DNA of 41,649 nt from Acidaminococcus hominis (GTDB taxonomy: Bacteria; Bacillota; Negativicutes; Acidaminococcales; Acidaminococcaceae): NCBI RefSeq assembly GCF_900291475.1, contig NZ_OLMM01000004.1:519223-560871 (forward strand), in the 5' to 3' direction. Below the pieces are notes generated by a model that searched no databases, was not told where the DNA came from, and saw only the letters and a list, made by a program, of their open reading frames with translations. Below, piece after piece: positions 21,389 to 36,257 of the stretch (its first letter is position 1; every line of letters starts with the position of its first letter). Made by a program: the position numbers and the translations under genes.

Positions 21389-23242
21389 TTATTTCGTGAT
21401 ATCTGTATATTTGGTCCGCAGGGCCAAGGGCAGGAACGCCCGGCCGCCGGCCTCATAAAACTTGCCGAAAAACTCGATATACTGCAGCCGGCTGCTGTGC
21501 ACGAAGGCACCCAGCACGTTGATGATGATGTTGAAATAGTGACCGGCAAAAAGCACCAGGATAGCAGCCACAATGCCAATTGGGCCAGCACCCCACAGCA
21601 TCTGGGCCACGGTATTGATAACCATGGCGATAACGCCGGTAGCAAGCCCCAGGGCGAAAATCCGGGAGTAGCTCAAAAGGTCACTCAGATACCCGCTGAT
21701 ATTGTACAGGCTCAGAAGCCCGCCCAGCAGGCGGCTGACAATGCCCTTCTTTTCCCGTCCGCCGAACAAGATGATGATGGCGGCACCCAAAATGGCCAGG
21801 TACTTGCCCAAGGGGCCCGGTACCAGTGCCATGGCAAAGAATCCGGCAAACATGATCAGCCAGCTCACTTCATCACAAATGGCCCCCAGCATATCCCCAT
21901 CCCGGATCAGCAGATACGTTTTGATCAGCATCCCGGTAACCAGATGGAGGACCCCCAGGCCAAAGCACAGGGCCAGCATCTTGATGGGCTCTTTCATGGG
22001 CACAAACAGCAAGGGTTTCCATTCCAAACCAAACCAGCCGCCAAACATGGCGCCCCAGATAATGGTAGAAATGCTGCCGAAGAAAATGACCATAGCCAGT
22101 TTCCCGGCAAACCCTTCCGGTTTGAATTTCTTCATGGCGATGTACAGCATAATGGTCAGTACCAGCCCGTACCCGGCATCGGAAAGCATCATCCCAAAGA
22201 AGATGAAATGGAACGGGGCCATAATGGCATCCGGGTCAAAGGAGCCAGCCATGGGTAGGGAGTACAGCTCCACCACCGACTCGTAGGGCCGGACCAAGGA
22301 ATTGTTTTCCAGCACCGTAGGTGGGATTTCCCCGTCCGGTTCTGCAAAGGAAATTTCAAAAGCATCGGTGACGCTGCGGATAACTTCTTCCACGTGCTTT
22401 GTCCGGTCTTTCCGGACCCAGCCCTGGACCCTAAAAGCCTTGGCGGTTTCTACCCCGCCGTTGGCCAGCCGGGCGTTGGCCGCGGACAGCTGGTCATAGT
22501 ACAGCTCCAGCTGCTGCTTTTGGCCGCCGAGCTCCTGGGTTTCCTTTCTGAGCTCTGCCACCTTCTCTTCCCGCTGGCGGATTTCCTCCAACAGTTCAGC
22601 TTTTACCTGCTGGGCCGTACCGCTGCGTTTGGGCAGCACCGCTTCGCTGAAGTCATTTTCCTTTAACAGGTGCTTGACCTCCTCGTCGGCGCTGAGATAG
22701 GCGATGATTACCACCGCCTGCCCGTCTTCACTGAGGCCATAGACGCTCAGCTCCACCGGCAGGTCCTTGAGCCCTTCCCGAACGGTTTCCAGCTGGGTAT
22801 CGGGCAAAAAGCCCGCATAGCACCGGGTGGTCTCCGTAAAAGCCAGCTGCTCCAAAGGAACGTCCAGCTGCAGCCAGGGTTCCAGACTGTCCGCCTGGGT
22901 CCTTAAAGCCGCCGCTTCACTTTCCAGGGAAGCAATCTTGCCGGCAATGGTGTCCAGCTGCTCGGTGAGCTGCCGCCCCTGATCGTTCTTCTTCAGGAAG
23001 TCCCCATAGGATACCCGCTCCTTTTGGGGGAACAGGGCACTTTTGGCCCCGTTCTGCACCATAAAGCGCAGAGCCTGCCCGGCCTTATCCAGCTGGGCAC
23101 TGACTTCTTCGGAACCCTCCAGGGCTTTGCTGTCCTCTTCCGGTTCCAGCATGACACTGCCATCTTTTTGCAGGGCCAGGTACAGGGCATCGCGATCCGC
23201 CTTCAACGCGTACAGCGTCAGCTTTTGCATGGGAACTAACAT
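21389..23242 (-). CDS. ntpI: V/A-type ATPase subunit I/a
   Basis: 617 residues: a cytoplasmic N-terminal half with coiled coil (about 85-120 and 215-265) and a membrane half from about residue 330 with eight hydrophobic segments. The late segment HSSRLQYIEFFGKFYE carries the conserved Arg region that faces the c-ring glutamate in this family. It forms the ion half-channels and stator. The start at 23242 overlaps the preceding gene by 7 bp; a second in-frame Met (residue 5, 23230) has no visible binding site. Confidence 0.94.
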   Translation of the reverse strand: MLVPMQKLTLYALKADRDALYLALQKDGSVMLEPEEDSKALEGSEEVSAQLDKAGQALRFMVQNGAKSALFPQKERVSYGDFLKKNDQGRQLTEQLDTIAGKIASLESEAAALRTQADSLEPWLQLDVPLEQLAFTETTRCYAGFLPDTQLETVREGLKDLPVELSVYGLSEDGQAVVIIAYLSADEEVKHLLKENDFSEAVLPKRSGTAQQVKAELLEEIRQREEKVAELRKETQELGGQKQQLELYYDQLSAANARLANGGVETAKAFRVQGWVRKDRTKHVEEVIRSVTDAFEISFAEPDGEIPPTVLENNSLVRPYESVVELYSLPMAGSFDPDAIMAPFHFIFFGMMLSDAGYGLVLTIMLYIAMKKFKPEGFAGKLAMVIFFGSISTIIWGAMFGGWFGLEWKPLLFVPMKEPIKMLALCFGLGVLHLVTGMLIKTYLLIRDGDMLGAICDEVSWLIMFAGFFAMALVPGPLGKYLAILGAAIIILFGGREKKGIVSRLLGGLLSLYNISGYLSDLLSYSRIFALGLATGVIAMVINTVAQMLWGAGPIGIVAAILVLFAGHYFNIIINVLGAFVHSSRLQYIEFFGKFYEAGGRAFLPLALRTKYTDITK

Positions 23243-23547
23243 GCGATCACGACCTTTTCCATAATATAGTCCACTGCCTGGGGCAGATTCTTCCGGGCCT
23301 TGGCAGCCACAGCGTCAGCTTCGCCCTTTTTCTGGGTAATGGCAGCCTCGGCTTCCGTCTTGGCCGCAGCTTCTGCAGCCGCTACCGTTTCAGCCGCCCG
23401 TTTCCGGGCTTCCTGCAATACTTCTGCAGCCTGGGCGTGGGCCTTTTCCTGGGCCTGGCGCAGGGTGCTGCGAGCATCTGCAGCCGCCTGTTTTTTCAGT
23501 TCGTCTGCCTGCTGCTCGGCATTTTTTATTTCTTCTAACATGGACAT
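23236..23547 (-). CDS. ntpF: V/A-type ATPase peripheral-stalk subunit G/H-like
   Basis: 103 residues, almost wholly an Ala/Glu/Lys/Gln-rich coiled coil (about 5-85) with no aromatic residues until the last 15. This fits the short partner (NtpF of E. hirae, subunit G/H) that forms the peripheral stalk with subunit E. It is first in the operon order G-I-K-E-C-F-A-B-D, a complete set. AAAGGTGG precedes ATG 23547. Confidence 0.85.
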   Translation of the reverse strand: MSMLEEIKNAEQQADELKKQAAADARSTLRQAQEKAHAQAAEVLQEARKRAAETVAAAEAAAKTEAEAAITQKKGEADAVAAKARKNLPQAVDYIMEKVVIAC

Positions 23548-23843
23548 GGTTTCACCACCTTTGTACCGTAGAGAGATTCATTACAGTTATGGTATATACA
23601 TTCTACAGAGCTAGAAAAATCCCTTCTGGTACTTAGAATATATATAATTATACTATATATTTAATGATAATAGGGGATTTTGTAACATATTTTTAAGAAA
23701 AGTTATCAATTAATTAGATATGTTTTTCGTAAAACGCCTTTTTTTCTCACATTTTGGCCCACCCTACATGGATTTTCCAGTCTCAAAACACTTTCTGCGG
23801 CTGTTAAAAAGAACCCTGCCAGACTTCCCCGGCAGGGCCCTTT
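23548..23843. other. AT-rich intergenic region upstream of the V-ATPase operon
   Basis: About 296 bp, far more AT-rich than its surroundings. It should hold the V-ATPase promoter. A minus-strand TATAAT at 23647-23652 and a TAGAAT near 23600 are candidate -10 boxes, but neither has a convincing -35. No gene is seen; the LysR terminator lies at its right edge. Confidence 0.5.
23806..23837 (-). terminator. Terminator of the LysR regulator gene
   Basis: Minus strand: CCCTGCC and GGCAGGG arms around a 10-nt loop, followed by TTCTTTTT. It begins 7 bp past the stop. Confidence 0.85.
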
Positions 23844-24764
23844 TTAGACTTCCCGGCTGCCAAATTCCCGCTTCAGCAGGTCAATGAAATACCGTTCCGC
23901 TTTATTCAGATAGCTGTTCTTCTTATAAATGGCATTGATGTTCCACTGAAAAGGATGGGGAGAATAATCGTAGCAATACCGGGCATAATCCGGCCCCAGG
24001 ATTTTCTTGGCCCGGCCGGGCACAATGGTAAAGCCCAGGCCGCAGGCTGCCAGCTGGACCGCCGTCATGCTGCTTTCCACTTCCATCAGTTCCTTGGGGG
24101 AAATATCATACTGGCGGAAAATCCGCTCCACCTGGGCATGGATGGAATGACGCTTCTTGATGCCGATAAAGGGCATATGCTCCAGTTTCTTCAGATCCAC
24201 CAGCCGGCTGGCCTTGTCCAGGAACATATCGTCCGTAAAGGCATCTTCCGCCGCAATCAGCTGCACCTTTTCCCGGTAGATCAGTTCCGTCACCATGGGC
24301 ACCGGCAGATACTCCTGGTCCCGGGGGCAGACCAGGAAGGTCACCTTATTATTCTTCAGCAGCTCAATCAGCTCGTCCGTACCCGCTTCCTGAATGAAAA
24401 ACTCCGAATCCGGAAAGCGCTGCCGGAAGGTATTGATAATGGGCGGCAGCATATACCCTGCCCGCTCCGCCGGAATCCCCAGACTGATCCGGGCCCCCTG
24501 GCCGTCCTTCAGGTCCGCCAGGCGGTTTTTCATCTCAATCCGTTCCTGAAGAATATCCCGGGCCGTCTTCACGTAGATAATCCCCGCATCCGTCAGCGCC
24601 AAAGGCTGCTGGGACCGGTCAAAAAGCTTGACGCCGATTTCCTTTTCGATCCGGGCCAGGGCATAGCTGAGGGAAGGCTGGGAAATATACAGTTGTTTGG
24701 CCGCCTGGGTAATGTTCCGGCAGTCAGCTACAGTTACTACATATTGCAGTTCACGAAAATCCAT
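23844..24764 (-). CDS. LysR-family transcriptional regulator (aconitate cluster)
   Basis: 306 residues from ATG 24764 (GAGGGG upstream; a longer TTG-initiated form is unlikely). The N-terminal winged HTH runs MDFRELQYVVTVADCRNITQ through SQPSLSYALARIEKEIG (to about 50), then a linker helix and a periplasmic-binding-like effector domain (about 90-300). It follows aconitase in the same direction with a terminator and 194 bp between, so it is probably a separate unit. LysR regulators commonly bind a pathway intermediate; a tricarboxylate is a natural guess here. Candidate operators lie upstream of the isocitrate dehydrogenase and PrpF-like genes. Confidence 0.92.
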   Translation of the reverse strand: MDFRELQYVVTVADCRNITQAAKQLYISQPSLSYALARIEKEIGVKLFDRSQQPLALTDAGIIYVKTARDILQERIEMKNRLADLKDGQGARISLGIPAERAGYMLPPIINTFRQRFPDSEFFIQEAGTDELIELLKNNKVTFLVCPRDQEYLPVPMVTELIYREKVQLIAAEDAFTDDMFLDKASRLVDLKKLEHMPFIGIKKRHSIHAQVERIFRQYDISPKELMEVESSMTAVQLAACGLGFTIVPGRAKKILGPDYARYCYDYSPHPFQWNINAIYKKNSYLNKAERYFIDLLKREFGSREV

Positions 24765-24876
24765 AATGTACCCCTCACCTTGCAAGAATCAAACTATTAT
24801 TACTTATATTCTACCATTTTTCAAGCCCTCTGACTGCCAAATTCCTGCGCCTTTGCCAATTTTTCTTCAGGACAGC

Positions 24877-24906
24877 AAAAACCCCTGGAACGGGGTCCAG
24901 GGGCTC
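24877..24906 (-). terminator. Terminator of the icd-acn operon
   Basis: Minus strand: CCCCTGGA/TCCAGGGG, 8 bp with a 6-nt loop, followed by five T (24877-24881). A smaller GNRA-like hairpin (TCGCA-GCAA-TGCGA) lies nearer the aconitase stop. Confidence 0.85.
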
Positions 24907-24958
24907 TTGCTGGTTTTGTTGGTTTTCAGCAAAAAGGAGGATATCGCATTGCTGCGAA

Positions 24959-27250
24959 TTACTTATTTTTAGCCTTGTTCCGGTTGAAGTTGATCAGGCA
25001 GCCAGCTTTGATGATAGCCCGTTCTTCAGCGGTCAGGTCTTTGATGTACAGGTTGATGGGGGTGGTTTCGCCGTTCTTCACCACGTAAGCGGTGATGTCC
25101 TGCAGGTCCCCATCCAGAGCTTTCCGGGCGCCGGGTACGTAGATGTAGTCGCCTACTTCAAAGGCCACCGGTTCGCCTTTCAGATGGAAAGGCAGCATGC
25201 CCCAGTTGATTACGTTGGAACGATACCGTTTGGTAGCGTAGTCTTGGGTGATGTTGGCCAGGCCGCCGATAACTCTCTGGCAGCTGGCAGCCTGTTCACG
25301 GGCAGAACCGTCGCCAGGTTTATTGGCATAAACCATGGAGCCGATTTCCGTGTTGGCAGGAGTTGCTTCCCCAGGCAGGCTCTTCAAGGTTTCGAACACA
25401 GCCTTTACTTCTTCCGGCAGGTCCTTGCCAGCTTCCCGGGCCACTTCTACTTCCTTCACAGCCTTGGTGCGGCCTACGTATTCCGGATCCCGGCGGGACA
25501 GGGTGAATTCAGCCAGGCCCAGGGGGTTGGAACGGTAGGAGGAGGTTTCACCAGAAGGAATCAGTTCGTCGGTGGTGGTAACCGGATCCAAAATCTTGGA
25601 GCAGACCTTCAGCAGTACGTTGTCACCCAGAGGCGGCATTTCCGGCCAGTCTTTGATGTTGGGGCCGTAGAACAGTTCCTGGTCCTTGTTGGCCTTGCCA
25701 AAGCCGTAGAATACACGGGCTTTGTAGGAGCTGTCGTCGAAGTGGTATTCAGGCACATTGCCGAAAGCATCGCCGTATTCTTCAGCAGAGGTCAGGATGC
25801 CGTTGTTGGCAGCGGTAGCAGCGATGGAACGAGCATCCATCAGGGCTACTGCAGCCATCTGGCCTTGGCCCGGTTTGCTGCCTTCCCGGTTGGGGAAGTT
25901 ACGGGTATTGTGACGAATGGACAGGCCGTTGTTGTTGGGGGTGTCCCCTGCGCCGAAGCAAGGTCCGCAGAAAGCGGTCTTAACCACAGCACCGGCAGCC
26001 ATCAGGTCCGTCAGTTCGCCCTTCTTCATCAGGTCCATATAAACGGGCATGGAAGAAGGATAAATGTTCAGGGTAAATTCGCCGGTGCCAATGGATCTGC
26101 CGCGCAGCATGTTGGCAGCTTCCACTACGTTCACGTAGTTACCGCCGGCACAGCCGCCGATAACCCCTTGCTGTACCTGGAGCTTGCCATTCACGATTTT
26201 GTCGGTCAGGGTGAATTCTGCTCTGCCCTGGCTAACCTTTTCCGCAGCCTTTTCGGTTTCCCGCAGGATGTCGCCCAGGTTGGCGTTCAGTTCGTCGATT
26301 TCGTAAGCGTTGGAAGGATGGAACGGCAGGGCAATCATGGGTTTAATGGTGGACAGGTCCACAACCACAACGCCATCGTAGTACGCTACGTCAGCCGGAT
26401 TCAGTTCCTTATAGTCAGCTTCCCGATGGTGTTCCTTCAGGAAAGCATGGGTGTCTTCGTCAGTTCTCCAGATGGAGGACAGGCAGGTGGTTTCCGTGGT
26501 CATTACGTCCACAGCGTTCCGGTAGTCGGTGGTCATGGAGGAAACGCCAGGTCCCACAAATTCCATTACCTTGTTCTTTACGTAGCCGTTCTTGTAAACA
26601 GCGCCGCAGATAGCCAGGGCGATATCATGGGGTCCTACCCAGGGTTTGGGAGCACCGGTCAGGTATACAGCCACTACGCCAGGATACGGGTTGTCCCAGG
26701 TGTCCAGCAGAATCTGTTTGTCCAGTTCGCCGCCGCCTTCACCTACAGCCATAGTACCCAGAGCGCCATAACGGGTATGGCTGTCGGAGCCCAGAATCAT
26801 CTTGCCGCAGCCGGCATACATTTCACGCATATATTGGTGGATAACAGCCATATGAGGGGGAACGTAGATGCCGCCGTATTTCTGGGCAGCAGTCAGGCCG
26901 AACAGATGGTCATCTTCGTTGATGGTGCCGCCTACAGCGCACAGGGAGTTGTGGCAGCAGGTCAGTACATAGGGCATGGGGAATTTTTCCATACCGGACG
27001 CACGGGCCGTTTGAATAATGCCAACGTAGGTAATATCATGGGAGGTCAGGGCGTCAAAACGGATTTTCAGGTTATCCATAGAGTCGCCGGTGTTGTGGCT
27101 TTTCAAGATGCTGTAAGCGATGGTACCTTTTTTGGCTTCATTCTTATCCAGCTTCTTGCCCAGCTGCTGCTCCGCTTTGGCAACATCTTCTTCGGCAATC
27201 AGTTCGGTACCGTGAAGCAGGTACGCACCATTTTTGTACAATTGAATCAT
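24959..27250 (-). CDS. acn: Aconitate hydratase (4Fe-4S)
   Basis: 763-residue aconitase-superfamily hydro-lyase interconverting citrate, cis-aconitate and isocitrate. Active-site marks: GSDSHT (154-159), the cluster ligands Cys367 (GGCAGG), Cys428 and Cys431 (FCGPCFG), and [10 protein letters not shown] (448-457), the counterpart of the usual SNRNF-GR loop. The C-terminal swivel domain follows from about residue 580. Length is that of the mitochondrial-like and Firmicute hydratase branch rather than the 890-residue AcnA. It lies 93 bp downstream of isocitrate dehydrogenase with AAAGGAG before ATG 27250. Together they convert aconitate to 2-oxoglutarate. A methylcitrate-type substrate cannot be excluded. 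Confidence 0.88.
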
Positions 27251-27343
27251 GAGTTTCCTCTCCTTTTTTCAGGCCCTGTCCGGATGATCGCAGTCCACCC
27301 GGCCGGGGCATAGTGGCTTGTAGTCAGGCTGTTTGTATCTGGC

Positions 27344-28507
27344 TTATTTTGCCAGGGTATCCAGCAGATAGTCCGTGAATTCTGCAGCCGTAGCTCCGTC
27401 CTTGTCGGTGGTGATAACCACTTTCTTTTCGGTGCGGGTGCAGATATCCAGGGCATCCACCAGTTGTTGTTTCTTTTCAGGGTAGCCAATGTGGGCAATC
27501 ATTTCGCCCATGGCCCGAATGAGGCTGCACGGATCGGCATACTGGGCACGGTTGTGCTGTACCAGGAAGTTGCCCACCCCATGGATGGCTTCAAACAGGG
27601 CGTATTGGTCGCCGATATTGGAGGAGCTAGCCGTTCCCAGGCCGCCCTGGTATTCGGCAGCCACGTCGGTAACAATGTCCCCGTACAGGTTGGGCAGCAC
27701 AAAGACCTGCATGCCTTTGGTGAATTCCTGGTCCGTCAGTTTGGCGGCCATGGAGTCAACCAGTTCTTCCCGTACCGTAATGCCCGGGTATTCCTTTTCC
27801 AGGGCATGGGCCATTTTAATGAAGTTCCCATCCACCAGTTTCACAATATTGGCCTTGGTTACCACCGTTACATTGGTCTTGCCATTGGCTTTGGCGAATT
27901 CAAAGGCAGCCCGGCAGATCCGTTCTGCACCGGGGCGGCTCAGGACCTTGAAGTCCACTGCCAGGTCATCGTTTACCTGAATGCCCTTGTTGCCCCAGAT
28001 GTATTCGCCTTCGATGTTTTCTCTAAAGAAGGTCCAGTCAATGCCCTTTTCCGGAATCCGCACCGGCCGTACTGCTGCATACAATTGCAGGGCCCGGCGC
28101 ATCAGGCTGTTGGCACTGACCAGGTTGGGCCAGGGATCGCCGGCCCGGGGAGTCACAAACGGACCCTTCACCAGTACGTCGCAGGCTTTGCAGGCTTCCA
28201 GTACTTCGTCCGGCAGGCTCTGGTTCTTGGCAGCCCGTTCTTCAATGGTCATGCCTTCGATGGTGGTAAATTCCACCTTCCCAGCGGCGATTTCGTCCTT
28301 GAGCAGGAACTTTGCCACCCGCAGGGCCTGTTCCATAATGTAGGGGCCAATGCCGTCCCCAGGCAGAATGCCTACGGTAACGTGGTCCAGCTTGGTGAAA
28401 TCCTTCCGGCCCGGTGCATTTTTGATGGCCTCAATACGTTTGAAATCTTCCCGGATGAGTGCTGCAAACTTCTCTGCCGCTTCACGAATAACTTGTTCTT
28501 GATCCAT
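27344..28507 (-). CDS. icd: Isocitrate/isopropylmalate dehydrogenase-family enzyme, probably isocitrate dehydrogenase
   Basis: 387 residues of the beta-decarboxylating dehydrogenase family. Motifs: LPGDGIGP (48-55), the substrate loop SANSLMRR (131-138), FRENIEGEY (161-169), Lys218, and metal aspartates in LYGDIVTDVAAE (274-285). The pattern of the substrate loop and the neighbouring aconitase favour isocitrate over isopropylmalate. The cofactor loop reads HGVGNFLVQHN (309-319) and is not a standard NADP signature, so NAD use is likely but unsure. It is the first gene of the icd-acn operon. Confidence 0.85.
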   Translation of the reverse strand: MDQEQVIREAAEKFAALIREDFKRIEAIKNAPGRKDFTKLDHVTVGILPGDGIGPYIMEQALRVAKFLLKDEIAAGKVEFTTIEGMTIEERAAKNQSLPDEVLEACKACDVLVKGPFVTPRAGDPWPNLVSANSLMRRALQLYAAVRPVRIPEKGIDWTFFRENIEGEYIWGNKGIQVNDDLAVDFKVLSRPGAERICRAAFEFAKANGKTNVTVVTKANIVKLVDGNFIKMAHALEKEYPGITVREELVDSMAAKLTDQEFTKGMQVFVLPNLYGDIVTDVAAEYQGGLGTASSSNIGDQYALFEAIHGVGNFLVQHNRAQYADPCSLIRAMGEMIAHIGYPEKKQQLVDALDICTRTEKKVVITTDKDGATAAEFTDYLLDTLAK

Positions 28508-28569
28508 GTTCTTATCCCCTTTGCTAGGCTTATCTGAAAACTTACTTCTAGTCCAATCTCGATACCCTT

Positions 28570-28599
28570 ATTGTAGGAGATTATTCAGTTAATTCCCAA
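28570..28599 (-). promoter_or_regulatory. Promoter of the icd-acn operon
   Basis: Minus strand: TTGGGA (28594-28599), 18-bp spacer, TACAAT (28570-28575), leader about 56 nt. The -35 touches the shared 26-bp motif, as expected for an activator site. Confidence 0.6.
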
Positions 28600-28623
28600 T
28601 ACTTGTACTCCCATAGGGGGTAT
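28598..28623 (-). promoter_or_regulatory. Candidate operator, copy 1 (icd)
   Basis: A 26-bp motif that on the plus strand begins AATACTT, has CTCCCATAG in the middle (28608-28616) and ends GGTAT. It is an imperfect dyad (TAC.CCC...GGG.GTA, 28606-28622). About 20 of 26 positions match the motif at 30065-30090, at the same 28-bp offset from the -10. Binding by the LysR protein is inferred. Confidence 0.55.
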
Positions 28624-28673
28624 CAGATTTTCTCTATAGCATTGTTTACAGCTAATAGCAAAGTTCCCATAAC

Positions 28674-29813
28674 TTATTTCCGGATGTAAACAAAGCCATC
28701 CATGGTCCGGCGGGCCGTACGCTGTACTGCCACCCCGTGTACCAGGATTTCCCCGTTTTGTTCTTCCAGGTCCGGATACACCGTCATCACGCCGCTGGGG
28801 TGACCCAACCGCACGGACTTGGTCCCTTCCGGCAGTGCCCCCAGGGTCTTTTCAATAATGGAACCCGGGAGGAACGCCGCTACCGCAATGGAGCTGGCGG
28901 CCGTCAGCGGGCAGGCCTTGTGGCATTTGAATACGGAGATCACCCGTACGCACAGATCCATAGCGGACGCTTCCACCGGCTGGCCGGCAATGTCCGTATA
29001 GCCTACAGGAGCCGTAAATACGCCCACCTTGGGAACTGCCGGAGAATTGGCCGTAGCATCTGCCAAATCCTTGGCAAAGCCCATTTTCACTGCTGCTGCG
29101 CCCCGGATTTTTTCCAGGAGGGCAGAGGCTTCCTTGTTGGCGTCCACCACCGCAGGCATTTCCGTGCCCGTAAGGCCTACGTCTTCTGCCTTCACCAGCA
29201 CCAGAGGGTTGGAGACGTCCAAAATGGTGGCTTCAAACTTCCGGCCCTCAATATCCAGCACGTCCAGGGTGCTTCCCGTAGGCAGCAGTTTCCCTGTTTT
29301 GGCACCGGCCGGGTTCAGGAAGTTTACCTTCAGTTCTGCCGCCGTGCCGTCAATACCGGCAATGTGGCAGTCCCCGTCCTGGGCAAAGGTATGGGTTTCC
29401 GGGTCAATGGGCACCGTTACGTTGATGTACTTGTCCGTGTTCTTGTTCAGCATCCGTACCGTAGTAATGGGTTCCACCACGGGCACCAAACCTTCCTCCA
29501 CGGCAAAGGGAGCCACCGCAGCTGTCATGTTGCCGCAGTTGGACTTGTAGTCCACCTGTTTCTTGCCCACAATCACCTGGCCTACCAGGTATTCCACATC
29601 CACATCTTTTTCTGCGCTCTTCCACACAATCACAATCTTATTATTGGAAGAAACCGTACCGCCCATGCCGTCCATCTGCTTGGGATCCGGATTGCCCATA
29701 ACCTGAAGGAAAATCTCATCCCATTCCTTCCGGTCCGCTGGCAGATCCTCCCGCAGGAACATACAGCCCTTGCTGGTACCGCCGCGCATATACACCGTTT
29801 TAAATTTTCTCAT
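28674..29813 (-). CDS. PrpF-family isomerase, probable aconitate isomerase
   Basis: 379 residues of the PrpF / diaminopimelate-epimerase-like fold, whose members isomerise unsaturated tricarboxylates (methylaconitate, oxalomesaconate, trans/cis-aconitate). Marks: MRGGTSKG (9-16), MDGMGG (47-52), SSNNK (55-59), the probable catalytic Cys93 in SNCGNM, and HPSG near the C-terminus. I chose ATG 29813 with AGAGGA upstream. The usual prpBCD partners are absent, while aconitase and isocitrate dehydrogenase lie directly downstream, so trans-aconitate to cis-aconitate is the best-supported role. It has its own transcript, 166 bp from icd. Confidence 0.82.
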   Translation of the reverse strand: MRKFKTVYMRGGTSKGCMFLREDLPADRKEWDEIFLQVMGNPDPKQMDGMGGTVSSNNKIVIVWKSAEKDVDVEYLVGQVIVGKKQVDYKSNCGNMTAAVAPFAVEEGLVPVVEPITTVRMLNKNTDKYINVTVPIDPETHTFAQDGDCHIAGIDGTAAELKVNFLNPAGAKTGKLLPTGSTLDVLDIEGRKFEATILDVSNPLVLVKAEDVGLTGTEMPAVVDANKEASALLEKIRGAAAVKMGFAKDLADATANSPAVPKVGVFTAPVGYTDIAGQPVEASAMDLCVRVISVFKCHKACPLTAASSIAVAAFLPGSIIEKTLGALPEGTKSVRLGHPSGVMTVYPDLEEQNGEILVHGVAVQRTARRTMDGFVYIRK

Positions 29814-29892
29814 TTTGCATCCTCTTTTCGTCAAGTTATCCGGCTTGTGCCGGTTCAGAAAATCGATGCGAGGCTAACTGCCTACGCTTTCG

Positions 29893-29922
29893 ATTATAGG
29901 CCGGTTTTCAGAATTTTACCAA
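29893..29922 (-). promoter_or_regulatory. Proximal promoter of the PrpF-like gene
   Basis: Minus strand: TTGGTA (29917-29922), 18-bp spacer, TATAAT (29893-29898), leader about 73 nt. This is the best-scoring promoter by eye for the gene. Confidence 0.65.
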
Positions 29923-29933
29923 TGATTCTCTAG

Positions 29934-29948
29934 TTATGCCTTCCATAA
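29934..29948 (-). promoter_or_regulatory. LysR-type box (T-N11-A dyad) upstream of the PrpF-like gene
   Basis: The perfect dyad TTATG-N5-CATAA fits the T-N11-A LysR consensus. Its centre is about -55 from the start site predicted by the proximal promoter, the usual place of a LysR recognition site. Confidence 0.55.
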
Positions 29949-30036
29949 CCTACATTTCTCACAGGAACTGGAAAAAGCTCCCTGGTACTGCGTCTTTTCT
30001 TCCCCCCCTGTAGTATCCGAAGATTTTTCTATTTCC

Positions 30037-30066
30037 ATTCTAGGTGAATAGTTCCAGCTTTGCTAA
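30037..30066 (-). promoter_or_regulatory. Distal promoter candidate of the PrpF-like gene
   Basis: Minus strand: TTAGCA (30061-30066), 18-bp spacer, TAGAAT (30037-30042). The geometry is identical to the icd promoter. If used, it gives a leader of about 217 nt. Confidence 0.45.
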
Positions 30067-30090
30067 TACTTATCCCCCCATATGAGTTAT
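30065..30090 (-). promoter_or_regulatory. Candidate operator, copy 2 (PrpF-like gene)
   Basis: A 26-bp match to the icd motif: AATACTT at the left, CCCATA in the middle, TTAT at the right on the plus strand. It starts exactly 28 bp from the -10 left edge, as at icd. Confidence 0.5.
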
Positions 30091-30279
30091 TTGAGTTTAT
30101 CTATGAAAGATTCAATAATCATTGGTTAATCATGATAGTCAAAAAGACGTTCCTTTCCTGTTCGGCCAAAACTAGCCCGTTTAAATTACCGGCTTCATTT
30201 CTGCTGCCCAAGCATTTCTGGGGCCCTTACCGAACAGCTAGAACAATTATTATGAAATCAGCTTTTAGGTATAGCTTTC

Positions 30280-30296
30280 CTCCCATAGCCCTATCA
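30280..30296 (+). promoter_or_regulatory. Candidate operator, partial copy 3
   Basis: CTCCCATAG (30280-30288) then TATCA (30292-30296), the same core pair as the icd motif with one base less between the parts. It lies 12 bp upstream of the -35 of the candidate small RNA. Confidence 0.4.
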
Positions 30297-30307
30297 TAGA
30301 GAAGGTA

Positions 30308-30337
30308 TTGGTATTTTCTAACAATTTCTTCTAGAAT
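30308..30337 (+). promoter_or_regulatory. Promoter of the candidate small RNA
   Basis: TTGGTA (30308-30313), 18-bp spacer, TAGAAT (30332-30337), giving a start near 30344. Confidence 0.5.
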
Positions 30338-30343
30338 AAAACA

Positions 30344-30438
30344 CGGGAAAATCCCGCCCTATTCCCCCGCTAATCTACAATAGGACGGATCGCAGGCGGA
30401 AAGGCACCTAGGACTGCAGGGCCTTTCCGCTTTTCCCT
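30344..30438 (+). ncRNA. Candidate small RNA (about 95 nt) with promoter and terminator
   Basis: Between a promoter (30308-30337) and an intrinsic terminator (30396-30434) lies a short non-coding stretch that folds. A small CGGGA/TCCCG hairpin opens it. Next comes a CCTATT/AATAGG stem extended by CCG/CGG, then the terminator stem. No open frame with a ribosome site is present, and no plus-strand gene follows for about 460 bp, so it is not a simple leader. I do not recognise an Rfam family. It may be expressed with the aconitate genes, since a motif copy lies upstream. Confidence 0.4.
30396..30434 (+). terminator. Rho-independent terminator of the candidate small RNA
   Basis: The perfect 10-bp stem GCGGAAAGGC (30396-30405) / GCCTTTCCGC (30421-30430) with a 15-nt loop, followed by TTTTCCCTT. 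Confidence 0.75.
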
Positions 30439-30454
30439 TATAAGCTCCACCCTT

Positions 30455-30600
30455 TATGCGGCCGCATCCAAACAGCCCCACAGTTTTCCAAAGGCGGTTT
30501 GGTCAATAAGGCCCATGCGATAGCGGCCCGCGAAGTAAGCCCAAAGGGCGCAACTAAGCGGTTTGCCGCGAACCGCTGGGGAGAGATGTCAGCCCCAGGC
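30455..30600 (+). repeat. Mosaic repeat, type-1 unit (degenerate)
   Basis: Hairpin CCAAAC.GCC / GGC.GTTTGG (30468-30502) is followed by ATGCGATAGCGGCC and AAGCCCAAAGGGCG, then GCCGCGAACCGCTGGGG. These blocks recur in the units at 30.6 and 38.0-38.8 kb. Confidence 0.6.
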
Positions 30601-30775
30601 TGAATGAGGGAGTCGTATCCACCTTTCAAGGCGTCAGCCGCAGAAAGGTGGAATATACGACCCCTGTGATAGCGGCCTGTGAATCAAGTCCGAAGGACGA
30701 TGACGAACAGCGAGCCGCGAACCACTGAGGGAATACCCGGCACCACATCACTTCAGATTCACTGACCGCACCACC
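30601..30775 (+). repeat. Mosaic repeat, type-1 unit A
   Basis: A two-step hairpin: outer GTCGTAT/ATACGAC (30612-30618, 30655-30661), inner CCACCTTTC/GAAAGGTGG (30619-30627, 30643-30651), with a 3-nt bulge AAT on the 3' side only. Then follow CTGTGATAGCGGCCTGTG, GCGAACCACTGAGGGAA and the tail CTGACCGCAC. It is the same order of blocks as unit B at 38632-38803, with inner arms of different sequence but conserved pairing. Confidence 0.8.
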
Positions 30776-30789
30776 AAAGTTGACACCCA

Positions 30790-30837
30790 GGGGCGGGGCA
30801 AAGGAAATTTCCTTTGCCCCGCCCCCAGTTTTCTTTT
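30790..30837 (+). terminator. Long perfect palindrome with T-rich tail
   Basis: Arms of 18 bp (30790-30807, 30808-30825) without a spacer: GGGGCGGGGCAAAGGAAA and its complement. After CAG comes TTTTCTTTT. It looks like a plus-strand terminator, yet no gene precedes it, only repeat A. It lies just upstream of the alcohol dehydrogenase promoter, so it may insulate that gene or end a repeat-derived transcript. Confidence 0.55.
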
Positions 30838-30904
30838 CCGCCAAATTCAGCTATACTGTAACTGTACGTTGTCTTGTCACACCATCCTGAAGGAGGTTTT
30901 TCAC

Positions 30905-32077
30905 ATGAAGGATTTTATTTACGATATTCCCACCAAGATTTATTTCGGCAAGGACCAGTTCTGTTATTTGGGCGAGGTTCTGGCCCAATACGGCAAAAAG
31001 GTGCTGCTGGTCTACGGCGGCGGTTCCATCAAAAAGATTGGCCTGTACGATACCATCCAGCAGGAAATCCAAAAAGCCGGCCTTACCTGCTTTGAAGTTT
31101 CCGGCGTGCTCCCCAACCCCCGCATCGACAAGGTACGGGAAGGCGTGCAGGTCTGCAAGGAGCAAGGCATCGATATGGTACTGGCGGCCGGCGGCGGCTC
31201 CGCCCTGGATACGGGCAAGATGATTGCCATCGGGGCCTGCGTGGACTGCGACCCCTGGGACTTCTTCATCAAACGGGTACCGGCGGAAAAAGCCCTGCCC
31301 ATTATCACCATCCCCACCCTGGCCGCTACGGGCTCCGAAATGGACAATGTGGCCGTGCTCAGCAACCCCGACACCGATGACAAACGGGGCGCCAAAACCA
31401 TGCTGATCCAGCCCAAGGTTTCCTTCCTGGACCCGGAAACCACCTATACGGTAAATGCCTACCATACCGCCTGCGGCGCCGCAGACATTTTGTCCCATAC
31501 CATCGAAACGTATTTTAACCCCACCGAAGGCATGTACCTTTTGGACACCTTCATGGAAGGGCTGATGAAAACCGTGATCCGCTATGCCCCCATCGCCCTG
31601 AAGGAACCAAACAACTACGAAGCCCGGGCCAACCTGATGTGGGCCGCTTCCTGGGCCATCAACGGCCTGTTCAAAACCTGCCAGAACCAGATCTGGAGCT
31701 GCCACGCCATGGAGCACCAGCTGTCCGCCTACTATGACATTACCCACGGCCTGGGTCTGGCCATTCTCACCCCCCGGTGGCTGGAATACTGCCTCACCGA
31801 GCAGAATGTGGACCGGTACGTCCGCTTCGGCGTCAACGTCTTTGGTCTGGATCCCCAGCAGGAACCCCTGACCATTGCCCACGAAGCCATCAACCACCTG
31901 GAACACTTCCTGTTCACCACCCTGGGACTCAAGAGCACCCTCCACGAAGTGGGTATTGGGGAAGAACACATCCCCGTCATGGCCCAAAAAGCCTGCTCCT
32001 CCAAGGGCAACGTGATCAAAGGCTTCCGTCCCCTGCTGCCGGAAGATGTGGTCCAAATCTACAAACGCTGCCTGTAA
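30905..32077 (+). CDS. Iron-containing alcohol dehydrogenase (BdhA/YqhD-like)
   Basis: 390-residue group III (Fe/Zn) alcohol dehydrogenase. The N-terminal Rossmann-like domain has YGGGS (37-41) and GGGSALDTGK (96-105). The metal ligands are Asp194, His198, His267 and His281 (contexts ADILSHT, CHAMEHQ, DITHGLG). The GSEMDN motif (143-148) puts it in the butanol dehydrogenase/YqhD branch, which reduces short aldehydes with NAD(P)H. In a fermenter this would serve as an electron sink or detoxify aldehydes. ATG 30905 has AAGGAGG upstream; a longer frame starting at 30869 is unlikely. A TATACT at 30852-30857 is a possible -10. Monocistronic. Confidence 0.92.
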   Translation: MKDFIYDIPTKIYFGKDQFCYLGEVLAQYGKKVLLVYGGGSIKKIGLYDTIQQEIQKAGLTCFEVSGVLPNPRIDKVREGVQVCKEQGIDMVLAAGGGSALDTGKMIAIGACVDCDPWDFFIKRVPAEKALPIITIPTLAATGSEMDNVAVLSNPDTDDKRGAKTMLIQPKVSFLDPETTYTVNAYHTACGAADILSHTIETYFNPTEGMYLLDTFMEGLMKTVIRYAPIALKEPNNYEARANLMWAASWAINGLFKTCQNQIWSCHAMEHQLSAYYDITHGLGLAILTPRWLEYCLTEQNVDRYVRFGVNVFGLDPQQEPLTIAHEAINHLEHFLFTTLGLKSTLHEVGIGEEHIPVMAQKACSSKGNVIKGFRPLLPEDVVQIYKRCL

Positions 32078-32114
32078 AAAGCAGTTGTATGATAAGAAAC
32101 AGCCTTGCATAAAT

Positions 32115-32157
32115 AAAAACCGCTGAAAAGCAATTTCTTGCTTTCCAGCGGTTTTTT
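32115..32157. terminator. Bidirectional terminator between the alcohol dehydrogenase and aminotransferase genes
   Basis: AAAAACCGCTG (32115-32125) pairs with CAGCGGTTTTT (32146-32156), with an inner AAAGCAA/TTGCTTT stem and a TTTC loop. The T-tract on either strand serves the two convergent genes. Confidence 0.88.
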
Positions 32158-32184
32158 CTATGCAGGGTTCTTTCGTTTAGGAGC

Positions 32185-33477
32185 TTATTTCACGCCAAAT
32201 TCCTTGGCAATTTCCACCGTAGCCTTCAGGAAGGTATCGATGTCGCCGAAGTCATGGCAGTGCAGCGGGGATACCCGTAGCAGGCCCGTATGACCCAGGG
32301 ATTCTACAATCCGTTTGGAGTACAGGCTGGTGTTGATCCGTTCAAAGACGATGATGTGGCGTTTTTCATAAGCCAGGCGCAGGTCGGTGTAGTCCACACC
32401 CTTCATGCCCATAGCCACTACCAGGTCACGGGTTTCGTCAATAGGACCATCATCGAAGTACACTTCTACCCCGGGGATATGGCGCAGGCCAGGAACGGTT
32501 TCGCTGCCTTCCAGCATATGTTCCAGCAGGGCTTCTTCCTGTTCGTGGGCTTTCTTCATGCCTACCACGTATTGTTCCCGGCGGCTTTCAGAATTGGTGT
32601 AGTGACGGCCCAGCCAGCATACATAGTCCACCATGGCGCTCATGGCAGCGAAGTTGGCATGGGGATAGGTGCCCAGTTCCCATTCCTTGGCATCCTTGCC
32701 GTTTAATTTATCATGGGGCAGCACAGCAGCCCGGTCAGAAACGTAGCCGTAGCCGCAGCCCCGGATACCCATCGCTTTATAAGGAGCAATAATCATGCCG
32801 TCCAGCTTCAGGTCGTGGGCATACAAAGCGGCGTGGGGCATATGCTGTACTGCATCGGAAATGATGTACAGGTCCGGTTTGATGGCCCGGGCTTTTTCGA
32901 TGATTTCCTTCATGGGGAATACTTTGCCGGAAATGTTGGAAGCGCTCATGACGCTGAGCAGGCAGGTATCCTTGTCCACCAGGTTCACAATGGCGTCCAC
33001 GTCCACCCCGCCAGTTTTGGGGTTGGCTTGGGCCACCCGCAGTTCCATGCCCATTTTGGCAGCATAGATGGCGGCAGCATCATAAGCGGACGGATGTTCG
33101 ATGGAGGTGGTGACCACGTTCTTGCCAGGAACATTTTCAATAATGGCACGGGTAATGCTGAAGGTGGTCTTGGACGGGGTCAGTTCCGTTACCAGAGCCC
33201 CTTCGCCCGGTTCTGCACCAAAAATAACTTCCAGCAGGTCAGAAATGCCCTTGGCTTTCACTTCATGCAGTTGCTCGGATACGTCATGATAACGCAGGGG
33301 GCAGTCAGGAATCATTTCGTATTTGGCCTTGGCATCTACGCAGGCCTTCAGGCGCAGGGAGCCGCCGGAGTTTTCAAAGAACAGCCGTTTATGGCCGAAC
33401 ATATCCTCATCCATATAACAGAACTTGCTTTTGATTTCCTTTTGCAGCGCTTCATCAAATACCGGTTTATTTGCCAT
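32185..33477 (-). CDS. Class V aminotransferase-family PLP enzyme (cysteine desulfurase-like fold)
   Basis: 430 residues of the class V (NifS/selenocysteine lyase) fold. PLP-site marks: SIEHPS (125-130, His128), SDAVQHMPH (207-215, Asp208 and Gln211) and the Schiff-base lysine Lys234 in APYKAMGIRGCGYG. The catalytic Cys loop of true cysteine desulfurases is not obvious near the C-terminus; the segment there reads GHTGLLRVSPLHCHDFGD. It may instead be an amino-acid aminotransferase or lyase. It follows a class I aminotransferase by 84 bp in one operon. Substrate unknown. Confidence 0.8.
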   Translation of the reverse strand: MANKPVFDEALQKEIKSKFCYMDEDMFGHKRLFFENSGGSLRLKACVDAKAKYEMIPDCPLRYHDVSEQLHEVKAKGISDLLEVIFGAEPGEGALVTELTPSKTTFSITRAIIENVPGKNVVTTSIEHPSAYDAAAIYAAKMGMELRVAQANPKTGGVDVDAIVNLVDKDTCLLSVMSASNISGKVFPMKEIIEKARAIKPDLYIISDAVQHMPHAALYAHDLKLDGMIIAPYKAMGIRGCGYGYVSDRAAVLPHDKLNGKDAKEWELGTYPHANFAAMSAMVDYVCWLGRHYTNSESRREQYVVGMKKAHEQEEALLEHMLEGSETVPGLRHIPGVEVYFDDGPIDETRDLVVAMGMKGVDYTDLRLAYEKRHIIVFERINTSLYSKRIVESLGHTGLLRVSPLHCHDFGDIDTFLKATVEIAKEFGVK

Positions 33478-33561
33478 GTTATTTCCTCTTTTCTGTATAG
33501 TACCCGGACCGGGCAGCCCTGCGGCCCCCAGCCCGGATCAAAAGTCAGCGTTTCCGTATGC

Positions 33562-34776
33562 TTATTTGCTTCTATACCGTTCCATCAGCTGCAGCACCCG
33601 GTCCAGGGCGGCAATGGCATTGTCCTTGTCCTGGGAGAAGTTCATCCGGAAGCTGTGGGTGAATTGCGGGCCAAATTCCGTGCCCGGCGTCAGGGTCACA
33701 TTGGCCATTTTCCGTGCAATTTTGGCAAAATCACTGATGCTTACATCCAAAGGCGGCAGGGTGGGGAATATGTAGCTGCCCCCTTCGGTCTTTCTTACCG
33801 AGCAGCCTTCGTGGGATTCTACCAGTTTAATCAGGGCATCGCGGATTTCCTGATGCTGCCGGATCCGGTCAGCCAGCCAGCCTTCCGGTTCGTTGAACCA
33901 GACCTTGAATACATGCTGGCAGTAGCCGGGAGCCCGCAGGGTAACAATGGCCTGGAGTTTTTCCATCCGGTCAATGATCCAGCTGGAACCAAAAGCCGTA
34001 CCCAGACGGAAACCGCTGAGGGATTCCGTTTTGGACGGTCCCATAATGGTCAGCATATTATCCGGTTTCTCTTCCAAGGCCCGGAGATGGGTGTAAGGAT
34101 GGCCGTCAAAAATCTGACGGGAGTACAGTTCATCCACCAGCAGGGTTACATTGTATTTCTTGGCCAGTTTGGCAATGGTGGTAATTTCCTTTTCAGAATA
34201 AATCACACCAGTGGGGTTGTTGGGGTTGGAGAACAGGAACAGTTTTACGCCCTGTTTGAAGGATTCTTCCAAATCATCCAGGTTCACCCCAGCACAGGTA
34301 TTTTGGCTCAGATAATCCAATTTAACCGGTACCAGTTCCCCTTCGAAGAATTCCACCAGTTTCCGGTTATCAAAGTAGTCCGGTTCCACAATGGCGACCT
34401 TGTCGCCCCGGCCTACCAGGCAGCCCAGTGCCAGGAACAGCGCGCCCTGGGTACCAGGAGTCAGGATCAGTTCCTTGTCCGGATCCACAGGAGCTCCGGT
34501 AAAGGCGGCCAATTTGGCGGCTACGTCCTGCCGAGGGTCTTCCCCGCCCCGGTATTCCGTGTACGCTACGCAGCTGCCCATGTTGAAGCCTTCAATGAAT
34601 GCATCCAGAGAACCCGGTGTGGGTTTGTGGGCATCTACATCCCCGTGGGAAAAGTCCACTTTGGGGCCCGGCAGGGGTTCGCCCCGCAGGTCCAGCTGAG
34701 CTGCAGCCTGCAATTTTTCCTGTCCCGGTGCATTGTCAATTCCCAAGCGTTTAAATTTCTCCGTCAGTAAATCCAT
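33562..34776 (-). CDS. Class I/II pyridoxal-phosphate aminotransferase
   Basis: 404 residues, fold type I. Marks: YTEYRGGEDPRQD (72-84, substrate cap), SNPNNPTG (183-190), VDELYSR (214-220, Asp215 to the PLP nitrogen), Lys249 in GPSKTESLSGFRLG, and Arg257. The C-terminal Arg in HSFRMNFS should bind the substrate alpha-carboxylate. It resembles aspartate/alanine/aromatic aminotransferases. I chose ATG 34776 with AGGAGGG directly upstream; the 14 residues before it in frame are not needed. It is first of a two-gene operon with the class V enzyme. Exact specificity is unknown. Confidence 0.87.
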   Translation of the reverse strand: MDLLTEKFKRLGIDNAPGQEKLQAAAQLDLRGEPLPGPKVDFSHGDVDAHKPTPGSLDAFIEGFNMGSCVAYTEYRGGEDPRQDVAAKLAAFTGAPVDPDKELILTPGTQGALFLALGCLVGRGDKVAIVEPDYFDNRKLVEFFEGELVPVKLDYLSQNTCAGVNLDDLEESFKQGVKLFLFSNPNNPTGVIYSEKEITTIAKLAKKYNVTLLVDELYSRQIFDGHPYTHLRALEEKPDNMLTIMGPSKTESLSGFRLGTAFGSSWIIDRMEKLQAIVTLRAPGYCQHVFKVWFNEPEGWLADRIRQHQEIRDALIKLVESHEGCSVRKTEGGSYIFPTLPPLDVSISDFAKIARKMANVTLTPGTEFGPQFTHSFRMNFSQDKDNAIAALDRVLQLMERYRSK

Positions 34777-34859
34777 AATATTCCCTCCTGAATCAAAATT
34801 GATTGTGGTTGTTTCCATGCGTCACTTGCCAGGTGTTTTGCCAAACATCTCTTGTCTCT

Positions 34860-34895
34860 ATTATAGAAAAGCCCGGCCCCAATTACCAATTGGTA
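34860..34895 (-). promoter_or_regulatory. Promoter of the aminotransferase operon with overlapping palindrome
   Basis: Minus strand: TTGGTA (34884-34889), 18-bp spacer, TATAAT (34860-34865). The -35 is embedded in a perfect 12-bp palindrome TACCAATTGGTA (34884-34895), a likely operator. The rest of 34896-35022 is AT-rich without a gene. Confidence 0.6.
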
Positions 34896-35022
34896 TTTAA
34901 GACACCTGTTATATCAATTTACTTATAGGCTAAGGATTCATTTCGGCTTTCAGGCCCGCATCTATACTGGATTCCTTTATTTTTTCACAAATATTTCTGT
35001 GTTTTTTCCCTGCGAAGGGAGA

Positions 35023-35997
35023 TTATAATCCACCAAGAACTTTCCCGTACTTGGCCCCTTCCTCCTGGCAAAATTCCATAAAGGCCTTGGCCAAAGGAGA
35101 CAAAGGCACATGCTTCTTATAGTACAGATTTACGCCCCGTACTGCCAGCGGGTCCGCCACCTTGTAGTACACCAGTTTGGGCGTAGCCTCCAGGGAACTG
35201 ATTACCTCCGCCCGGATCATGGTCACCCCTTTGCCGTCCCGGGCAATAAAGTAGCTGGTAAGCATCTGGTCCATTTCCAGCAGTACCTGGGGGCGAATGC
35301 CCGCATTCCGGAACATCTTCTTGATGCGCTTATGGCTGTCGTTGCCCTTGGTCAGGAGAATAAAGGGATACTTCTGAAACTCTGCCAGGGATACCTGGGG
35401 ACAGTCCGGCTCCCAGTACCGGCCCTGTTTCACCTCTTCCCAGGAAAGCGCCGCCTCCCGGAGCCGTTGGTTCACCGGGTACTCTGCCGGCACCACCAGC
35501 AGCATCATTTCCGAATATAGGTAGCAGCCCTGGCATTTGCTGCCGTAGCTGGTATCCACACTGAGCACCATGTCCACCGTATCCTTTTGCAGGTACTGGA
35601 CCAGGTCCGCCGTATTCCCTTCCAGTAAATTGATGTTGGCTGGCTTTTTGCTGGCCTTCCGAAAGGCATCCGCCAGTTTGGGCAGCTCATTGGCGCAGAA
35701 AAACGCCGAACTCCCAATGCGCAGGGTCCCCTGTTCCAGGCTTTGCAGGGCCTGGAGCTCCTTCCCCAATTTCTGCTCGATTTCCCGAATTTTCAGGGCG
35801 CTGTTGATGTACTTGATGCCTGCTTCCGTCAGCGTCAGGGGCGTTACCCGCCGGTTAAAAAATTGCAGCCCGTACCGCTGCTCCTCCTTTTTTACAATGG
35901 CGCTGAGTGCGGGCTGGGTTACAAAGAGCTTGGCCGCGGCTTTGGAAAAGCCATGTTCCTCGTACACCGCCAGCACATATTCCATTCCTTTTTCCAT
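35023..35997 (-). CDS. LysR-family transcriptional regulator (divergent from symporter)
   Basis: 324 residues from ATG 35997, preceded by AGGGGAG. N-terminal HTH: VLAVYEEHGFSKAAAKLF and TQPALSAIVKKEEQRYG, followed by the typical RVTPLTLTEAG segment and an effector domain with an unusual Cys pair (KCQGCYLY near residue 155). It is divergently arranged with the symporter gene at 36258, the standard LysR target layout, so it probably controls that gene and itself. The co-inducer is unknown. Confidence 0.92.
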   Translation of the reverse strand: MEKGMEYVLAVYEEHGFSKAAAKLFVTQPALSAIVKKEEQRYGLQFFNRRVTPLTLTEAGIKYINSALKIREIEQKLGKELQALQSLEQGTLRIGSSAFFCANELPKLADAFRKASKKPANINLLEGNTADLVQYLQKDTVDMVLSVDTSYGSKCQGCYLYSEMMLLVVPAEYPVNQRLREAALSWEEVKQGRYWEPDCPQVSLAEFQKYPFILLTKGNDSHKRIKKMFRNAGIRPQVLLEMDQMLTSYFIARDGKGVTMIRAEVISSLEATPKLVYYKVADPLAVRGVNLYYKKHVPLSPLAKAFMEFCQEEGAKYGKVLGGL

Positions 35998-36065
35998 AGC
36001 GCTCCCCTTTCTTGTATTCTGCACATTGTATACTTTTTACCGAAATAAATCTTGTTGTCTTTGAT

Positions 36066-36128
36066 TATACTCCTAAAAAGCAAGTATTTATGCCCTTTTC
36101 CCGTTTTTTCCCATACGTATTTTTGTAT
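36066..36128. promoter_or_regulatory. Possible LysR sites between regulator and symporter
   Basis: ATAC...GTAT pairs occur twice in the 260-bp divergent region: near 36066-36086 (13-bp gap) and at 36113-36128 (8-bp gap). They resemble LysR half-sites, but neither has the exact T-N11-A spacing, so this is tentative. Confidence 0.3.
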
Positions 36129-36149
36129 AAGGTGATATCTATTTACATA

Positions 36150-36180
36150 TTGGCAAAAGGCCCTTGTTTTTTTCTATAAT
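36150..36180 (+). promoter_or_regulatory. Promoter of the symporter gene
   Basis: TTGGCA (36150-36155), 19-bp spacer, TATAAT (36175-36180), about 78 bp upstream of the start codon. The wide spacer suggests dependence on an activator. Confidence 0.5.
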
Positions 36181-36257
36181 ATTTTTAGCTAAGAATCACA
36201 CGCATGGAAGCCGGGCCGTCCGCCAAACATCCCCGGACTACAAGGGAGGTTTTTTTC

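Follow-up and report, generated by a model that had tools for sequence, protein, structure and literature searches.

The window, a stretch of 41,649 nucleotides that was analysed as a whole, belongs to the 2.6-Mb genome of Acidaminococcus hominis (G000). It carries four genes in line on the minus strand, listed here in the order of transcription:

28674-29813, minus strand: PrpF-family isomerase, candidate aconitate isomerase (PF04303, 391 bits; under cut-off for the OMA tautomerase and PrpF equivalog models)
27344-28507, minus strand: icd, a protein of the isocitrate/isopropylmalate dehydrogenase family (top NCBIfam models: isocitrate dehydrogenases, with every match under the curated cut-off)
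24959-27250, minus strand: aconitase-family hydratase of the PRK11413 type, acn (NF008503, 1367 bits; cut-off 641)
23844-24764, minus strand: LysR-type regulator, lysR, the proposed binder of the sites below (many LysR-family models; occurrence; LysR tree)

The closest relatives of icd among named records were from Acidaminococcus. The dehydrogenase matched 18 models, in each case with a score under the curated cut-off, and it keeps the motif S-x-N-x-x-x-R (VSANSLMRR), which is associated with isocitrate binding. The substrate names are only likely, since they come from family models, several of them under curated cut-offs; judged from sequence, the genes likely handle the aconitate/isocitrate branch. 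The PrpF-like protein of the window falls in the superfamily of the aconitate isomerases TarA and TbrA, which are described in passages of PMC11495376.

The two motifs and the 69-bp element

The first-pass annotation had described a 26-bp motif before icd and again before the PrpF-like gene, with about 20 of 26 positions in common and the same distance to the promoter. Measurement gave an identity of 20/26, a distance of 28 bp from the start of each 26-mer to the left edge of a minus-strand -10 box, and an 18-bp spacer at both promoters, with TACAAT (icd) and TAGAAT (PrpF-like gene) as the -10 boxes, all as claimed. Counted from the sequence, the stretches between motif and -10 matched at 10/22 positions, so "mostly different" was a fair description of them. 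The similarity of the two sites ran about 14 bp further upstream (ATAGA-N-AAA-N-TC), beyond the 26-mer of the first-pass annotation, which predicts a two-part operator. The features were as follows (R1 is the covariance model described in the next section):

28569-28637, minus strand: full predicted operator-promoter of icd(-acn), with the upstream dyad at 28637-28622, the core TATGGGAGTACAAGTATTGG, the -35 and the -10 (R1 match of 61.4 bits, used in training; one of the 11 aligned sites of the genus)
28598-28623, minus strand: 26-bp motif, site 1, confirmed as first described
28594-28599, minus strand: -35 TTGGGA of the icd promoter, 18-bp spacer (promoter scan and sequence)
28570-28575, minus strand: -10 TACAAT of the icd promoter (promoter scan and sequence)
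30036-30104, minus strand: full predicted operator-promoter of the PrpF-like gene (R1 match of 54.9 bits at 30037-30104, a training site; alignment of genus sites)
30065-30090, minus strand: 26-bp motif, site 2, confirmed as first described
30061-30066, minus strand: -35 TTAGCA of the PrpF-like gene promoter, 18-bp spacer (promoter scan and sequence)
30037-30042, minus strand: -10 TAGAAT of the PrpF-like gene promoter (promoter scan and sequence)

In Markov resamplings of the two intergenic regions, which did not require equal spacing to a -10, the best 26-mer match reached 20 in 3 of 300 trials and was never higher. The pair of window sites taken alone is suggestive only. With up to three mismatches allowed, the consensus of the two sites occurred at only these two places in the window and in none of 100 shuffles; because it was built from both sites, this count shows only the absence of a third close copy.

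The gap between icd and acn is 93 nt and acn has no site of its own in the window; this acn would come under control only through co-transcription with icd. The leader of the PrpF-like gene (29814-30030) measures about 220 nt from the predicted start site to the ATG, and it holds a second promoter-like match (TTGGTA-18-TATAAT, minus strand, 29922-29893). An Rfam search of window positions 23000-37000 returned nothing at the gathering threshold.

Alignment of the 11 sites of the genus showed each 26-mer to be the core of a larger element of 69 bp, made up of an upstream dyad, this core, a weak -35 and the -10 in fixed register. The columns invariant in 11/11 sites were ATA (1-3), AT (15-16), TAT (23-25), AGTATT (35-40), TA (63-64) and T (68). 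The upstream dyad was AT-N12-AT, with AT at columns 1-2 and 15-16 of every site; T-N12-A was present there in 11/11 sites and T-N11-A in 6/11 only. The core had T-N11-A at columns 23/35 in 11/11 sites and ran into the weak -35. At the -10 columns all sites kept TA...T, with sequences between TATAAT and TAATGT; at the -35, which is TTGGAA-like, all kept TT(G/A)G. The upstream dyad was conserved though it lies outside the core promoter, and the sequence between core and -10 drifted. LysR-type promoters have a T-N11-A box and an upstream recognition dyad centred near -65. Assuming a transcription start about 7 nt past the -10, the dyad would be centred at about -66 and the core at about -46, positions in keeping with the LysR layout. 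A CsoR-like palindrome in site 1 (TAC-N-CCC-N3-GGG-N-GTA) was rejected as a candidate element, as it was not kept across the 11 sites.

A third candidate site, missed by the first-pass annotation, lies on the opposite strand:

30271-30338, plus strand: third candidate site, 1 bp shorter between the dyads, with -35 TTGGTA at 30308-30313 and -10 TAGAAT at 30332-30337 (gapped PWM score 27.6)
30344-30440, plus strand: possible short structured transcript with a terminator-like hairpin at its end (folding energy -38.8 kcal/mol, z -3.3, 1/200 shuffles as good)

The third site has an upstream dyad, a core, a -35, an 18-bp spacer and a -10. Its gapped score compared with -13.5 ± 4.6 in shuffles of the intergenic region (0/300 as high), and the maximum over 20 whole-window shuffles was 2.4. 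It is likely but not certain to be a real operator-promoter; the doubt comes from its partial R1 match, with an E of 0.0034 within the window and 0.2 genome-wide, and from a promoter-only look-alike in G006 with a gapped score of 18.6. The 97-nt structured stretch after it may simply consist of terminators. A minus-strand terminator-like hairpin also lies at 30343-30370, and 30344-30440 had no match better than E 0.03 in the 58 other genomes. It seems improbable that the same LysR drives this promoter to produce a structured RNA of about 95 nt (30344-30440) that has a C-rich loop and carries its own terminator; if true, the regulator would couple the aconitate/isocitrate enzymes to a small regulatory RNA.

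The adjoining DNA (30436-30780) is part of a repeat family: the matches listed for 30340-30840 in its own genome numbered 68, the stretch itself included. They fell mostly into two modules, each about 120 nt long, and were often located on contig C8; the 8 other Acidaminococcus genomes gave no match at E <= 0.001. A perfect 18-bp inverted repeat with a T-rich tail (30790-30825) forms a strong terminator-like hairpin about 80 bp before an iron-type alcohol dehydrogenase gene. The idea of this gene as a conserved target of the third site was not supported: relatives at E <= 1e-80 were found in only 2 of 8 other genomes of the genus, and the gapped scan at the G008 relative (64% identical) gave no match above 5.

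Distribution of the element and of the LysR gene in the family

With a position matrix built on the two window sites, the motif was located ahead of icd in further Acidaminococcus records, and two genomes had it ahead of a hydrolase-transporter-prpF cluster. In the aligned sites of the relatives, conservation began 14 bp further upstream than the 26-mer and extended to the -10. R1, a sequence-only covariance model of 69 columns with 8 training sites, was then used on 59 genomes of the family, with stricter filters that lose some weak matches. It found 11 sites of 46-63 bits (E <= 1.1e-11), two each in G000, G001, G005 and G008 and one each in G002, G006 and G007. Eight were the training sites; those before G008 icd, G008 acn and G005 icd were new. 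Some R1 match at E <= 1 occurred in 43/59 genomes, and the next best match anywhere had 19.9 bits. One such match, at C55:16990-17026 of G006 (E 0.004), was rejected as a real site: only the promoter half (columns 33-69) matched, and it lay before an unrelated gene. The first-pass annotation had made its reading depend on conservation of the motif in relatives, and conservation was found, with all 11 sites in seven LysR-bearing genomes and none above 19.9 bits in the other 52/59.

The window LysR had matches at E <= 1e-60 in exactly the seven site-bearing genomes, of which G005 had two, while the other 52 had none; this comparison covered the window LysR, among 30-57 first-look LysR-like candidates per Acidaminococcus genome. 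icd at E <= 1e-100 was present in the same seven genomes and in G003 (A. massiliensis). The G003 icd is 88% identical, but that genome has no LysR match at E <= 1e-60 and no site upstream of icd, and in G004 icd, LysR (at these thresholds) and the site are all absent. As the genomes of the genus are related, seven with and two without amount to few independent events.

The lysR gene lay in the same cluster as a site-bearing operon or within 0.8 kb of one in G000, G001, G005 and G008, and G005 had two copies, one beside each operon. It was about 10 kb from the site in G006 and on a different contig in G002 and G007; a LysR-type regulator was thus within about 10 kb of a site in 5/7 genomes. The site preceded icd in 7/7 genomes, acn separately in one (G008), and prpF or a hydrolase-transporter-prpF cluster in three. 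It stood before icd followed by acn in G000, G002, G005, G006 and G007; G001 had icd with a site, and in G008 icd and acn each had their own. The prpF target was the gene itself in G000 and the hydrolase-transporter-prpF cluster in G001 (where acn follows) and G005. An ortholog of the PrpF-like protein (at least 76% identical) was found in three genomes, all three with a site before the gene or cluster. Another LysR, divergently oriented, lay within the fetched DNA at 11 of 17 other PrpF loci (37-49% identical).

In two genomes an amidohydrolase resembling 4-sulfomuconolactone hydrolase (L023 8103-8975; L022 9644-10537) stands first in the transporter-prpF cluster, and the L022 copy scored 164 bits on the corresponding model (cut-off 500). 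The citrate-type transporter of G001 (L003 2663-3671) is divided into two shorter reading frames of 279 and 165 aa, compared with 435 aa in G005, and therefore looks broken there.

LysR clades and upstream dyads beyond the genus

A total of 80 icd loci were fetched, of which 76 were outside Acidaminococcus records. With the genus matrix, the 13 of these with a LysR of at least 230 bits outscored the other 63 (Mann-Whitney p 8e-6, a value that shared ancestry may inflate; L034, L059 and L060, under 230 bits, were counted as LysR-negative). Against shuffles, z was above 2 at 10 of the 13 LysR-bearing outside loci and at 8 of 59 others, a set from which L034, L039, L059 and L060 were left out because they looked site-bearing. 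The LysR-bearing loci not clearly above shuffles were L038 (z 1.1, 10/60 as good), L035 (z 1.2, 7/60) and L040 (z 1.6, 3/60).

In a LysR tree of 54 rows, built by a quick method and with site labels assigned by hand beforehand, 22 regulators of site-bearing genomes or loci formed one clade (SH-aLRT 99). One site-labelled LysR, that of L060, fell outside it; the second LysR of L107 has the "site" label solely because labels were given per locus. L059 was too short for the tree and was placed in the clade for the leave-one-out, dyad and register counts. A second matrix, made from the outside sites and used leave-one-out, found the element in 15/15 clade loci outside the genus (z 8-22, 0/25 shuffles each). 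An ORF began 0-124 nt after the -10 region at these loci, and 9 of the 15 ORFs read as icd or aconitase. The second matrix also gave z > 3 in 27/61 non-clade loci; in those that were read, the promoter half was similar and the upstream dyad often different.

Other LysR clades had other dyads. TGCA..CTAT was found in 7/8 loci of another clade, 0/15 clade loci and 3/48 unassigned loci, and ATGAG..CTCAT in 5/5 loci of a third clade and 0/15 clade loci. A fixed-register pattern of the clade of the window LysR (clade A) matched 13/15 clade loci, 0/8 and 0/5 loci of the other two clades and 3/48 unassigned loci. The first regular expression for clade A was too strict (3/15) and was redrawn to give 13/15; the rewritten clade-B pattern found 0/8 (earlier 7/8) and the clade-C pattern 4/5 (earlier 5/5). 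Patterns, clade lists and site labels were fixed after the sites had been seen, so these counts are descriptions and not blind tests. The TGCA..CTAT dyads at icd promoters of the other clade lie at L070 5882, L071 2162, L067 5872, L072 4363 and L052 5892, and the ATGAG..CTCAT dyads of the third clade, before an aconitase-looking gene, at L044 6605, L046 8286, L053 12048 and L098 1380.

Proposed regulon and comparison with known systems

The conservation of the sites together with one LysR clade, and the presence of other dyads with other clades, gave computational support to the proposal of the first-pass annotation that one regulator, probably the LysR at 23844-24764, acts at both motifs. Very probably both motifs serve as operator sites for a single LysR-type regulator, with the protein encoded at 23844-24764 as the most likely candidate; this would place icd(-acn) and the PrpF-like gene in one regulon. 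icd is the constant predicted target, and the PrpF-like gene is a predicted target in 3/7 genomes. In the proposed mechanism, a LysR tetramer would hold the upstream dyad and contact the core next to the -35. Binding of a tricarboxylate (citrate, aconitate or isocitrate) would shift its grip and help RNA polymerase, and isomerase, aconitase and dehydrogenase would rise together, feeding carbon to 2-oxoglutarate. Activation is preferred to repression because the -35 is weak; the geometry by itself cannot decide.

A possible but less probable variant, compatible with the shared regulator, is that the same protein at the same sites is mainly a repressor of the CcpC kind, sitting on both dyads over the -35 and freed by citrate. 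CcpC represses citB, with citrate reducing its binding, according to passages of PMC8514465, and ybhH is up in an E. coli ybhD mutant in those of PMC9068703. The weak -35 (TTGGAA type) speaks for an activator instead, as does the end of the core at the -35, and the LysR regulator TarR is described as activating a trans-aconitate operon (passages of PMC11495376).

That a different regulator, a LysR paralog or a member of another family, binds the sites while the neighbouring LysR merely travels with the cluster is unlikely. The 30-57 LysR-like candidates per genome leave room for it, lysR and icd are on different contigs in G002 and G007, and palindromes like the one in the core of site 1 are of a kind used by other repressors. 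Against it, the CCC..GGG palindrome is lost across the 11 sites, where ATA, AT, TAT and AGTATT are invariant; among the 59 genomes, LysR at E <= 1e-60 occurs in exactly the site-bearing ones; and the site-bearing loci of other families hold LysRs of the same clade, with other dyads at the two other clades. A recent promoter duplication or a shared core-promoter sequence with no shared regulator is hardly credible: it would suit the 3/300 chance level of the window pair alone and the promoter-only look-alike of G006 (C55, columns 33-69, E 0.004, before an unrelated gene), but the element is kept in seven genomes and recurs in other families with its register unchanged, the core-to-(-10) sequence drifts, and the upstream dyad is conserved outside the core promoter.

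The proposed LysR regulon resembles CcpC of Bacillus, also a LysR regulator of an aconitase gene with a two-part operator, in the predicted centring of the upstream dyad at about -66; passages of PMC8514465 report binding of CcpC to the citB dyad at -66 and to a half-dyad near -27. The CcpC boxes there are ATAA, TTAT and TATT, the second near -27, whereas here the dyad is AT-N12-AT and the core would lie at about -46. Against the NCBIfam model of CcpC, with its cut-off of 400, the window LysR also reached only 88 bits, and icd and prpF are among its predicted targets.

In Bacillus velezensis, TarR-tarAB likewise places a LysR regulator over a PrpF-superfamily aconitate isomerase; passages of PMC11495376 describe tarR as divergent from tarA and TarR as binding TTATAA palindromes, three of them in the promoter. 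The window lysR, in contrast, is downstream on the same strand, TTATAA is in 0/11 sites, and icd is the constant predicted target. YbhJ of E. coli is presumably of the PRK11413 aconitase-like type. The ybhD-ybhHI-ybhJ system, compared by its genes, has a LysR gene beside ybhJ and the PrpF-like ybhH, whose product is termed a 4-oxalomesaconate tautomerase homologue; ybhD is divergent and ybhH is up in its mutant, unlike the four genes in line here, and the passages of PMC9068703 make no mention of icd in this system. A. fermentans, of the same genus and with likely the same substrates, gains energy from citrate and trans-aconitate. Its published route runs via citrate, oxaloacetate and pyruvate, whereas the genes here lead to isocitrate and 2-oxoglutarate, and no regulator is named in the passages of PMC3035267. 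A. intestini is among the predicted trans-aconitate users in passages of PMC11495376.

No description of this regulator or operator was found in the open-licence literature searched by title, abstract start or passages (subscription papers were outside this scope). Within that literature the predicted switch is newly described; it is ordinary in kind, a new example of the well-known LysR switch, and is well supported by comparison.

The proposed regulon suggests a second way to 2-oxoglutarate, an oxidative one that perhaps serves glutamate. It provides a testable operator, regulator and target list for the switching of the tricarboxylate-to-2-oxoglutarate branch in gut Acidaminococcus, and this switch may also operate in other Bacillota whose LysR belongs to this clade. 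The different dyads per LysR clade, next to a similar promoter half, would offer a natural series for the change of LysR specificity.
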